From DASVDK01 sp036381125 [NCBI: Thermodesulfobacteriota bacterium] (GTDB lineage: Bacteria; DASVDK01), in assembly GCA_036381125.1 (NCBI GenBank), contig DASVDK010000129.1:1-18099 (forward strand): a stretch of DNA of 18,099 nucleotides, in the 5' to 3' direction. Shown piece after piece: positions 3,955-16,109 of this stretch; the stretch's first letter is position 1; every line of letters begins with the position of its first letter. The notes under the pieces are model-generated. The model worked only from the letters and a program-made list of their open reading frames with translations, made no database searches and was not told the DNA's origin. Both the position numbers and the translations under genes were made by a program.

Positions 3955-4796
3955 TGCGTGTGGGCGAGGTCCTCCGCGGGACCGGCCGCTCCTGGTCCGG
4001 GCGGATCGGGCTTGCCATCGCGCTGCTCGTGCTCGCCCTCGCGACGGTGGGTCCGCTCCTCTACCCGGTGGACCCCTACAAGATGGCGGTCCGCGAGCGG
4101 CTCAGGCCGCCGTCGGCGGCCCATCCCTTCGGGACCGACGAGTTCGGCCGGGACCTCCTCGCCCGGGTGATCCACGGCAGCCGGCTGACCCTCTCGGTCG
4201 CGGTGATCAGCGTCGGCATCGCCGGCGTCGTGGGGACCGGGCTCGGCCTGGCCGCCGGCCTCGGGGGGCGGCACGTGGACCTGGCCGTCGGGGCCGTGGT
4301 CGACGTGATGCTCGCCTTCCCGGGGTTCCTCCTCGCGCTCGCCATCGTCGCCGTCCTCGGGCCCAGCCTCGAGAACGCCATGATCGCGATCGGCATCCGA
4401 CGCATCCCGGTCTTCGTGCGCGTCGTCCGCGCCGGCGTCCAGCAGGTGGCGTCCACGGAGTTCGTGGTGGCGGCGCGCGCCCTCGGCGCCGGCGTCGCTC
4501 GCGTGGCCGGCGTCCACGTGCTGCGCAACGTCGCCCCGACGCTCGTCGTGCTGACGACCCTGCAGTTCCCCGAGGCGATCCTCGTGGCCGCCGGGCTCTC
4601 CTTCCTCGGCCTCGGCGCGCAGCCCCCCCTGCCCGAGTGGGGCGCGCTCCTCGCCACGGCGCGCGTCTACATCGCGCGCGCGCCCTGGCTCGTGAACTTC
4701 CCGGGGCTCGCGATCCTCCTCACCGTCCTCGGCCTCAACCTGCTCGGCAACGCGCTGCGGGACGTCCTCGACCCGCGGCTCTCGAGGAGCGCCTGA
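3954..4796 (+). CDS. ABC transporter permease, DppC/OppC type
   Basis: Second inner-membrane permease subunit, 280 residues, expected to form a heterodimer with the preceding permease. The DppC signature HPFGTDEFGRD is at 57-67, just after helix 1 (about 17-37). The coupling loop EFVVAARALGAG is at 169-180. A late SFLGLGAQPPLPEWGALL stretch is typical of the family's C-terminal part. ATG 3954 was chosen because it overlaps the upstream stop by one base and gives the standard N-terminal length; the in-frame sequence before it does not resemble the family. It also overlaps the nitrilase start by one base. Assignment is firm; substrate not known. Confidence 0.94.
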   Translation: MRVGEVLRGTGRSWSGRIGLAIALLVLALATVGPLLYPVDPYKMAVRERLRPPSAAHPFGTDEFGRDLLARVIHGSRLTLSVAVISVGIAGVVGTGLGLAAGLGGRHVDLAVGAVVDVMLAFPGFLLALAIVAVLGPSLENAMIAIGIRRIPVFVRVVRAGVQQVASTEFVVAARALGAGVARVAGVHVLRNVAPTLVVLTTLQFPEAILVAAGLSFLGLGAQPPLPEWGALLATARVYIARAPWLVNFPGLAILLTVLGLNLLGNALRDVLDPRLSRSA

Positions 4797-5575
4797 TGCC
4801 TCCGGTCCGCGTCGCGCTCGCCCAGCTCGCGCAGGTCGTGGGAGACCCGGCTGCCAACCTGCGCCGCGCCCTCGACACGCTCGGCGAGGCGGCCGCCCGG
4901 GGCGCGCGGCTCGTCCTCTTCCCCGAACTCCACCTGCAGGGCTACGCCGCCGACGAGGCGTTCGCGTCGCTCGCCGAGACGGTCCCGGGCCCGTCGACGA
5001 CCGCCCTCGTCGAGGCGGCCGGCCGGCACCGCGTCGAGGCCGTCGTCGGCATGGCGCGCCGCGACCCCGCGTTCCCGCACGGCGTCTACAACAGCGCCGT
5101 GCTCCTCGACGGATCCGGCGTGCGCGCGGTGTACGACAAGGTGCACCTCGGCACGTTCGGGCCGTTCCGGGAGGGGTGCTGGTTCGCGCCGGGTCGCGGC
5201 GCCGAGGTGGTCTCGACGGCGCTCGGGCCCTCGGGCTTCGCCATCTGCTACGACTGCTCGTTCCCGGAGCTGCCGCGCGGCCTCGCCCTCGGCGGCGCCG
5301 AGAGCCTGCTCGTCGTCTCGGCCGGCCCGGTCGCGGCGCGAGACAAATGGGGCCACCTCCTCCGCACCAGGGCCTACGAGAACGCCATGTGGGTCCTTTA
5401 CTGCAACACCGTGGGCCGGCAGGGGCCGTACGAGTTCTTCGGCGGCAGCCGCGTCGTCGGGCCGAACGGCGAGGTGACCGTCGAGGCGCCGGCGGGGGAG
5501 GAATCGCTGCTCGTCGCCGACCTGGCGCCCGAGGCGGTGGCGCAGGAGCGCTACCGCCGCCACCCGTTCCGCTAG
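4796..5575 (+). CDS. Nitrilase-family (carbon-nitrogen hydrolase) amidase
   Basis: Cytoplasmic carbon-nitrogen hydrolase of 259 residues, the short form seen in omega-amidases, N-carbamoyl hydrolases and aliphatic amidases. The Glu-Lys-Cys triad is visible: Glu44 in LVLFPELHLQGY, Lys115 in VYDKVHLG, and Cys151 in FAICYDCSFPE. The N-terminal VRVALAQLAQVVGD strand and the terminal LLVADL segment complete the single domain. ATG 4796 overlaps the DppC-like stop, so the enzyme is coupled to the transporter and sits where DppD/DppF ATPase genes usually are. It may hydrolyse an amide imported by this system or released by the gamma-glutamyltransferase; that link is inference. True nitriles are less likely than amides for this short form. 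Substrate is not assignable. Confidence 0.9.
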   Translation: MPPVRVALAQLAQVVGDPAANLRRALDTLGEAAARGARLVLFPELHLQGYAADEAFASLAETVPGPSTTALVEAAGRHRVEAVVGMARRDPAFPHGVYNSAVLLDGSGVRAVYDKVHLGTFGPFREGCWFAPGRGAEVVSTALGPSGFAICYDCSFPELPRGLALGGAESLLVVSAGPVAARDKWGHLLRTRAYENAMWVLYCNTVGRQGPYEFFGGSRVVGPNGEVTVEAPAGEESLLVADLAPEAVAQERYRRHPFR

Positions 5576-5592
5576 CTCCATAGCGATGGGGC

Positions 5593-5624
5593 GCCCCGCG
5601 AAGCGGGGCCCGGGCGAAGCCCGG
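5593..5624. other. Double GAA-loop hairpin in repeat unit 1
   Basis: Two back-to-back perfect hairpins. GCCCCGC pairs with GCGGGGC (5593-5609), and CCGGGC pairs with GCCCGG (5610-5624), each closed by a GAA triloop. Both contain the heptamer GCGAAGC, a sequence known for unusually stable DNA mini-hairpins. Confidence 0.85.
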
Positions 5625-5693
5625 AGCGCCGGCAGTGCGGTCCGTGGGCGGCACGCGAGGACGGGAGCCGATCCTCGGCCCGCGCAGCGGGGC

Positions 5694-5708
5694 CGGGCCG
5701 AAGGCCCG
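5694..5708. other. GAA-loop hairpin in repeat unit 2, stem changed but still paired
   Basis: CGGGCC pairs with GGCCCG around a GAA loop. Relative to units 1 and 3, the second and fifth pairs from the loop are swapped (G-C to C-G and C-G to G-C), so pairing is kept. The first hairpin of this unit (5679-5691) is reduced to five pairs with a GCA loop. Confidence 0.75.
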
Positions 5709-5768
5709 AGCGCTGTGACGCGGGTCCGTGGGCGGCACGCCGGCACGAGAGCGGGGCCGATCCCTCGT

Positions 5769-5800
5769 GCCCCGCGAAGCGGGGCCCGGGCGAAGCCCGG
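5769..5800. other. Double GAA-loop hairpin in repeat unit 3
   Basis: Same two hairpins as unit 1: a seven-pair stem at 5769-5785 and a six-pair stem at 5786-5800, both with GAA loops and both containing GCGAAGC. Confidence 0.85.
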
Positions 5801-5893
5801 AGCGCCGGCAGTGCGGCCCGTGGGCGGCACGCCGGCACGAGAGCGGGGCCGATCCCTCGCGCCCCGCTCGGGGGGTCGCCGGCGACGCGCGGG

Positions 5894-6655
5894 TCAGATC
5901 GCCTCGCGCACCTTCCGGTACGTCGCGGCGGCGGCGTCGGCGAGGAGCTTCGAGTCGGTGACCACGGCGATGAAGGTGACGCCGTCCCTGATCCGTGCGA
6001 GCGCGGCGTCGGCGCCGGTGGTGAGGTAGCCGACCGCCTTGCCGTGCGCCTTTGCCGCGGCGACGATGCGGGACACCGCCGACGTGAACTCCGGCCGGTC
6101 GAACTGCAGGTAGCCGCCGAGGCTCGCCGAGAGGTCGTTCGGCCCGATGAAGAGCACGTCCACGCCCGGGACCGCGGCGATCCGCTCGACGTTCTCCACC
6201 GCCTCGCGCGTCTCGACCTGCACGACCACGAGGGCGTCCTCGTTCCACTCGTCGAAGTAGCGCTTCGCGTCGAGCCCGTAGCGCGATGCGCGGGTGCCGG
6301 CGATGCCGCGGATCCCCTCCGGCGGGAAGCGGCAGGCCGCGACGGCCGCCGCCGCCTCCTCGGCGGTGTTCACCATCGGCACCAGGACGCCGGCCGCGCC
6401 GCGGTCGAGCGCCCGCTTGATGAGCGCGGCGTTGTTCTCGCCGACGCGGACCATCGGGACGACGCCGTGGGGCGCGATCGCGCGGATCACGTTCTCGACG
6501 TCCGCGTAGCTCGCCGGCCCGTGCTCCGTGTCGACGAGCATCCAGTCCATGCCGAAGCCGGCGAGCAGCTCCGCCACGTCGGGCGAAGGGAAGCTGAGCC
6601 AGTGTCCGACGGCCGGCTCTCCCCGGCGGAGCAGCGCCTTCACGCGATTGGCCAT
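5894..6655 (-). CDS. HpcH/HpaI-type class II aldolase
   Basis: Metal-dependent pyruvate-type aldolase of 253 residues, close to the 250-260 usual for HpaI, GarL and RhmA relatives. These cleave 2-keto-3-deoxy acids to pyruvate plus an aldehyde. Visible family motifs are LVDTEHGPASY with His45, PMVRVGENN with Arg70, LVPMVNTAEEA, the metal ligand Glu148 in VQVETRE, and Asp174 in FIGPNDLSASLG. ATG at 6655 is supported by a strong AGGAGGA at 6662-6668. The start overlaps the end of the upstream dehydrogenase by 16 bp, so the two are one transcript and probably coupled. HpaI, GarL and RhmA functions cannot be told apart by eye. The gene ends against the repeat array. Confidence 0.92.
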   Translation of the reverse strand: MANRVKALLRRGEPAVGHWLSFPSPDVAELLAGFGMDWMLVDTEHGPASYADVENVIRAIAPHGVVPMVRVGENNAALIKRALDRGAAGVLVPMVNTAEEAAAAVAACRFPPEGIRGIAGTRASRYGLDAKRYFDEWNEDALVVVQVETREAVENVERIAAVPGVDVLFIGPNDLSASLGGYLQFDRPEFTSAVSRIVAAAKAHGKAVGYLTTGADAALARIRDGVTFIAVVTDSKLLADAAAATYRKVREAI

Positions 6656-8494: not shown

Positions 8495-8520
8495 GGTCAC
8501 GTGAAAAAAAGCACGTGGCC
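8495..8520. terminator. Inverted repeat with poly-A loop between SDR and iclR
   Basis: GGTCACGTG pairs with CACGTGGCC (one G-U wobble as RNA) around the loop AAAAAAAG. It starts 15 bp after the SDR stop and ends just before the iclR -35 hexamer, in a striking A-rich spot. No U run follows the stem, so it is not a standard intrinsic terminator; it could stop SDR transcription weakly or bind a protein at the CACGTG sites. Confidence 0.4.
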
Positions 8521-16069: not shown

Positions 16070-16077
16070 CGGCCCCG

Positions 16078-16109
16078 GCCCGGGGCGCATCCGCGGGGGC
16101 GCCCCGGGC
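16078..16109 (+). terminator. Strong hairpin after the transport operon
   Basis: A perfect 11-bp stem GCCCGGGGCGC/GCGCCCCGGGC with a 10-base loop (16089-16098), nine bases past the binding-protein stop. No U run follows, which is common in high-GC genomes but lowers certainty. It separates the catabolic operon from the NAD synthetase. Confidence 0.55.

Follow-up and report, generated by a model that had tools for sequence, protein, structure and literature searches.

The described elements closest to the array studied here are intrinsic terminators, the REP2 repeat of Neisseria and REP/BIME sequences. Intrinsic terminators combine a single GC-rich hairpin with a T-run soon past a stop codon, and Neisseria REP2, a dispersed repeat near genes, carries a ribosome-binding site and a start codon. 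REP/BIME elements are extragenic palindromes near gene 3' ends with short GC-rich stems (5-13 bp) and short loops, often clustered, and carry an unpaired GTAG or CGTC tag at one end of the stem; typically a genome has many copies and a RAYT (TnpA-REP) gene. In the part of PMC3733652 that was available, most convergent REPs in REP-rich genomes are placed within 20 bp of the 3' end of the upstream ORF, REP families are described as having alternative complementary stem residues between units, clusters as being reiterated in tandem together with flanking DNA, and the degenerate tags GYAG and GTGG as being allowed in some families.

The array lies in a window of 18,099 nt (the whole stretch of DNA that was analysed; GC 73.5%), in which a 318-bp gap with 82% GC separates the stop codon of a CN-hydrolase gene from that of a convergent HpcH/HpaI aldolase gene (Table 1). 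The gap (5576-5893) is made up of three head-to-tail units and the decayed start of a fourth. The tandem repetition is unmistakable and was reported by TRF at 5649-5867 with a period of 92, 2.4 copies and a score of 286, the highest among its 10 rows; an earlier, sequence-only reading of this DNA had described three tandem units, correctly, except that they measure 84, 92 and 92 bp and not the claimed 86-92 bp. Each unit runs from two neighbouring GNA-triloop hairpins through a less regular part holding a 15-base core to a stem that reaches the unit boundary. The exact core occurs three times in the window, every copy inside the array, and with three mismatches allowed there were 11 matches against 7.63 expected, which is no enrichment. 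GC content by codon position was flat across the array (0.80-0.84 in all three forward frames), whereas the flanking genes gave 0.78/0.53/0.96 and 0.73/0.48/0.97. A step of 92 bp also shifts the reading frame (the 84-bp step keeps it), and both features indicate that the array is noncoding.

Table 1. Coordinates of the array, its parts and the two flanking genes in the window.
Feature	Position	Strand	Basis
CN-hydrolase gene, upstream neighbour	4796-5575	+	PF00795, E 7e-52; inferred start
Unit 1, 84 bp	5591-5674	+	Repeat detection and unit alignment
Unit 1 hairpin 1, 7 bp, GAA loop	5593-5609	+	Hairpin scan and unit fold; lost in whole-gap fold
Unit 1 hairpin 2, 6 bp, GAA loop	5610-5624	+	Hairpin scan and folds
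15-base core, copies 1-3	5642-5656, 5726-5740, 5818-5832	+	Exact matches
Unit 1 boundary stem, CGAGGA paired with TCCTCG	5656-5677	+	Letters checked; also in unit 1 fold
Unit 2, 92 bp	5675-5766	+	Repeat detection and unit alignment
Unit 2 hairpin 1, GCA loop, one mismatch (columns 4/18)	5677-5693	+	Unit alignment and hairpin scan; lost in whole-gap fold
Unit 2 hairpin 2, GAA loop, two compensated pairs	5694-5708	+	Unit alignment and whole-gap fold
Unit 2 boundary stem, GGCACGAG paired with CTCGTGCC	5742-5749 with 5764-5771	+	Letters checked; pairing by eye
Unit 3, 92 bp, head like unit 1 and tail like unit 2	5767-5858	+	Mosaic
Unit 3 hairpin 1, 7 bp, GAA loop	5769-5785	+	Hairpin scan and unit fold; whole-gap fold keeps it on - strand only
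Unit 3 hairpin 2, 6 bp, GAA loop	5786-5800	+	Hairpin scan and folds
Unit 3 boundary stem, one mismatch	5834-5841 with 5856-5863	+	Letters checked; pairing by eye
Fourth unit, decayed, start only	5859-5873	+	Family D2 fourth copy 5859-5892 at 74%; end set by eye
HpcH/HpaI aldolase gene, convergent neighbour	5894-6655	-	PF03328, E 3.1e-43; inferred start

In location and design the likeness to REP/BIME elements, proposed from the letters alone, is a fair one. This noncoding palindromic array stands between convergent gene ends, hairpin 1 of unit 1 starting 17 nt past the CN-hydrolase stop codon, and it agrees with REP/BIME elements in its short GC-rich stems, small loops, clustering and extragenic position within 20 bp of a gene 3' end; with REP families, as the available part of that source portrays them, it also shares alternative complementary stem residues between units. 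The difference lies in the tag, since no GTAG or CGTC abuts hairpin 1 or hairpin 2. No GTAG, CTAC or CGTC occurs on the forward strand in 5576-5893, and GACG is found on that strand at 5660, 5717 and 5884, in no case abutting either hairpin. The degenerate forms present in the gap, which are expected at 82% GC, are GCAG at 5632, 5684 and 5808 and GTGG at 5644, 5728 and 5820; they adjoin neither hairpin, save for the GCAG within hairpin 1 of unit 2, but those at 5632 and 5808 lie at the foot of the third stem.

The array resembles an intrinsic terminator in setting GC-rich hairpins soon past a stop codon, but it has several hairpins in tandem and no T-run; no hairpin with a U-tract was found in 5400-6100, and this candidate was dropped. 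Two perfect hairpins were also seen past other stop codons of the window, GCCCCGGCCCGGGGC at 16072-16086, 2 nt past an NMT1-like gene, and CACGTGAAAAAAAGCACGTG at 8498-8517, 18 nt past an SDR gene, neither followed by a T-run, and hairpins of this kind may be usual at gene ends in this genome. Neisseria REP2 is like the array a repeat near genes, but nothing similar to its ribosome-binding site and start codon is present at the unit ends in the window. A known Rfam RNA was likewise dropped, with no match in the window at the gathering score and, in a relaxed search of 5560-5910, a best hit with an E of 1.5 that scored 15.6 bits where the gathering score is 71.

The hairpin layout is beyond chance. 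When unit 1 was shuffled 20,000 times with its dinucleotides preserved, double GNA-triloop hairpins (stem of at least 5, gap of at most 3), of which the array has three, never arose, and any two GNA-triloop hairpins with stems of at least 5, whatever the gap, arose in 4 shuffles. A comparable double GAA hairpin was present in one of the 199 loci scanned early (L070), and two GCGAAGC tips within 25 nt of each other in none of 26 loci around NAD synthase matches, on the forward strand. Looser adjacent hairpins (stem of at least 6, loop 3-5, gap of at most 12, any loop type) are not rare, eight unrelated doubles having been counted in five of six comparison loci taken from those 26. That the units open with two adjacent GAA-loop hairpins, as had been claimed, is right for units 1 and 3, where the two hairpins abut; in unit 2 the loop of hairpin 1 is GCA, and the perfect stems of 5 and 6 bp lie 2 nt apart.

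We set out as the preferred reading, at a probability of a little under one half (about 0.47), a REP-like noncoding intergenic palindromic repeat, tandemly expanded by unequal exchange, that structures the 3' ends of both convergent transcripts. A REP-like palindrome would have been multiplied in tandem through unequal exchange; transcription entering from either side would then allow the array to take up a compact GC-rich fold, and this fold might limit read-through into the opposite gene, shield mRNA 3' ends from exonucleases, or both. The tandem anatomy, the noncoding composition, the convergent position, the hairpin layout and the exchange between units are observed; transcription through the array, the 3'-end function and any selection on the fold we infer. 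In favour of this reading, the array fills the convergent gap close to the upstream stop codon, is noncoding, folds well as a whole on both strands and keeps hairpin 2 in that fold, its double GNA hairpins exceed chance, and unit 3 records exchange. Against it stand the loss of hairpin 1 from most of the whole-gap fold, the uneven folding of single units and the absent U-tract and tags.

The predicted folds bear on both sides of this question. The whole 318-nt gap was more stable than its shuffles on the forward strand (z -4.37, 0 of 100 as good) and on the reverse strand (z -2.80, 0 of 100), and in its minimum-energy fold every unit, whichever strand was folded, retained hairpin 2 complete (6 of 6 pairs). 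Hairpin 1 was lost (0 of 7 pairs) from every unit of the forward strand and, on the reverse strand, from all but unit 3; the lost hairpins had a mean pair probability of at most 0.02, and their arms paired with other parts of the array. The double hairpin may thus form only locally or during transcription, and the modelled whole-gap fold speaks against its being the form at work within a long RNA. Folded singly, with a few flanking bases included, units 1, 2 and 3 gave RNA z values of -2.35, -1.63 and -3.20 on the forward strand and -1.57, -0.88 and -3.36 on the reverse strand, and for unit 2 14 of 200 forward and 32 of 200 reverse shuffles folded as well.

The chief rival to the REP-like 3'-end array is a neutral palindromic satellite, in which a GC-rich quasi-palindrome was copied by slippage or unequal exchange, had its arms matched by template switching and serves no function; we regard this as a serious possibility. 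It concerns directly the stem changes from which the sequence-only reading had argued for selection on the fold rather than drift. The changes are real: in hairpin 2 of unit 2 the pairs at columns 21/33 and 24/30 are changed on both arms and pairing remains at 100%, and sliding the structure by 1-3 columns lowered the number of doubly changed pairs from the 2 of the true register to 0 or 1, which favours the earlier reading. Other stems decayed uncompensated, as at column 4 of hairpin 1 in unit 2 (partner column 18) and in the third stem (columns 38-52 with 57-70), which has no compensated pair and in which 9 of 13 pairs fail, six of them in unit 2 and the other three in unit 1. Across the whole structure the covariation score was reached in 48 of 500 shuffles and the number of doubly changed pairs in 129 of 500; doubly changed pairs are thus no commoner here than among shuffles.

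Unit 3 is a recombinant, a mosaic that differs from unit 1 at two positions over columns 1-66 and is identical to unit 2 over columns 52-92, and therefore only two hairpin versions exist rather than three independent copies. The two versions of hairpin 2 differ by a shift of one base in the register of each arm, and a change in one arm followed by a single template-switch copy into the other could give it. According to the available part of PMC8794818, template switching in DNA replication can create or mend stems, multibase compensatory changes included. Since shuffles match the doubly changed pairs, other stems break, units 1 and 3 are dependent in the head and template switching could account for the symmetry, the stem changes, real as they are, do not demonstrate selection for the fold. 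Covariation cannot be shown with three tandem copies between which sequence is exchanged, and template switching alone can produce symmetric changes in a stem. The exchange seen in unit 3, the decayed fourth unit and the fate of hairpin 1 in the whole-gap fold also suit a neutral satellite, but neighbouring GNA hairpins in three of three units and the good folding of the whole gap fit constraint at least equally.

The unit had been said to belong to no named family, and the searches of Rfam, plasmids, phages, viral contigs and distant genomes agree; titles and abstract openings in the literature held no description of it. Array DNA had no blastn match in plasmids and phages, and four longer unit patterns had none in viral contigs. 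The exact 15-base core was found in at least 119 viral-contig stretches, as a single match in each of the 80 listed, so that the core alone is not diagnostic, and a loose double GNA-hairpin pattern matched six viral stretches with flanks different from those of the array. Adjacent GNA mini-hairpins in viral contigs, CCGCGNAGCGG beside GGGCGNAGCCC, lie in loci L289, L290, L292 and L294, with a near-identical copy including flanks in L290 and L294.

Among genomes, a search with array DNA at E ≤ 1e-3 gave matches in 10 of the 149 relatives of G059 covered, of which seven were chance-like inside genes (by eye, without annotation) and three were a Burkholderiales cassette considered below; among 386 relatives of G001 two matched at E ≤ 1e-4, each looking like part of a gene by eye, and among 64 relatives of G305 none. 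Covariance model R1 at E ≤ 1 recovered only the three units in the window, and in 250 genomes of G158's order nothing at E ≤ 0.001, a threshold that G158's own cassette also misses. Because the genome sets overlap, with at most 2 to 17 candidates scored per genome, and because all these genomes are distant from the window, absence elsewhere was weakly tested and is weak evidence. Gene content and the GC of 73.5% prompted a tentative guess of Rokubacteria for the window. NAD synthase identity was 57% in G009, up to 67%, 65% and 62% in further searches and between 61% and 69% within G059's order (30 of 240 genomes, E ≤ 1e-230); this plateau suggests that the window lies outside that order (presumably Burkholderiales). 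The same protein gave a 703-bit alignment, spanning 2-641, to 3dla (deposited as glutamine-dependent NAD(+) synthetase) and was met at two viral-contig loci with 40-41% identity. For the aldolase 125 stretches were confirmed in genome contigs, the best 80 at 33-49% identity; the CN-hydrolase reached at most 42% among the 20 plasmid matches listed, and the substrate-binding protein was found in 0 of 290 at the very strict threshold of E ≤ 1e-100.

The cassette, of about 110 bp, is dispersed and often tandem in genomes that appear to be Burkholderiales (L259-L288 and L200-L228; for example L260:1502-1727, L263, L271, L219 and L226), and a search at E ≤ 1e-6 found it in 20 of the 70 G158 relatives covered, the loci used holding 48 distinct units or fragments. 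It spans one ATGA to the next, with an RBS-like GGAGGCGGCGGC and a hairpin whose loop is mostly GNA (GAA, GCA, GTA, GGA) with a few others. An ORF of 36-38 aa with its stop codon at the following ATGA or next to it was found in 24 of the 26 cassettes, from the 48, that start with ATGA and reach at least 110 nt. Among 26 distinct arrays in L259-L288, 14 lead from the last ATGA into an ORF of at least 80 aa, 12 follow an ORF of at least 80 aa ending at the first TGA, and seven do both; the cassette looks like an element inserted at start/stop overlaps within operons with translational coupling kept. In two subtypes (MSLGAGAPRSGDAT... and MSREQGPREAGMRPAA...) the reading frame across the same hairpin DNA differs while the ORF length is kept, which suggests that DNA or RNA structure, and not the peptide, is conserved over the hairpin. 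Composite cassettes (L205:1441-1730 and L225:1390-1600) contain, by eye, an inserted segment with further inverted hairpins, some reading as GNRA-type loops (GTAA, GCGA), with stems that differ between the same flanks. The cassette is more striking than the array.

That the array is a diverged, decayed relative of this cassette, stranded between convergent genes, seems unlikely. Both can be tandem and have a similar unit length, the GNA-loop hairpin has the same sequence as the array's first, blocks like CCCGGGCGAA and CGCCGRCAGYGCGGTC occur in the same order, the best match of the cassette profile in the window is unit 1, and the cassette accounts for three of the ten genomes with weak DNA matches. 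That best match, however, has an E of 0.82 with 20 bits removed for composition, so the sequence relation is not significant, and model R1 gives the cassette at most 22.2 bits, little above the 20.1 and 19.2 bits of other loci. The cassette has an RBS-like stretch, ATGA at both ends, the mini-ORF and its ~110-bp period and often sits between operon genes, whereas the array has no ATGA, RBS or open mini-ORF at its unit ends and occupies a convergent gap. It is improbable that tandem hairpin cassettes, mostly with GNA loops, form an undescribed superfamily across distant high-GC lineages, uniting the Burkholderiales mini-ORF form at start/stop overlaps with the convergent 3'-end array of the window.

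We judge it very improbable that the array is a single-stranded DNA substrate whose d(GCGNAGC) mini-hairpins would be recognised by a transposase, nuclease or replication protein. GCGAAGC occurs 15 times in the window against 6.0 expected (as many in 0 of 200 shuffles), with 4 of the 15 inside the array, and the six hairpin tips of the three units comprise four GCGAAGC, one GCGCAGC and, in hairpin 2 of unit 2, CCGAAGG; five of six are thus, by their letters, predicted GCGNAGC DNA mini-hairpins and the sixth falls outside this form. In favour of such a substrate, a 1994 paper, cited in PMC10527192 as reference 16, reportedly terms d(GCGAAGC) extraordinarily thermostable in its title. Two solved GCGAAGC structures given in a table in the available part of PMC5430850 count on the same side, as does the DNA fold of unit 3 on the forward strand (z -4.03, 0 of 200 shuffles as good), but the corresponding folds of units 1 and 2 are near their shuffles (z -1.45 and -1.16, with 26 of 200 as good for unit 2), and the Pfam scan of 10 window ORFs gave no transposase. 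A repetitive protein-coding segment was dropped as extremely improbable, for although long open frames span the array they are expected at 82% GC, and the flat codon-position GC and frame-breaking 92-bp step stand against it.

In kind the array looks ordinary, an unclassified bacterial palindromic spacer repeat. If the reading as a REP-like array at convergent 3' ends is right, it adds one more intergenic palindromic repeat; if the unit proved abundant in its own genome, a high-GC lineage not yet sampled would gain a REP-like family that lacks the usual abutting tags.
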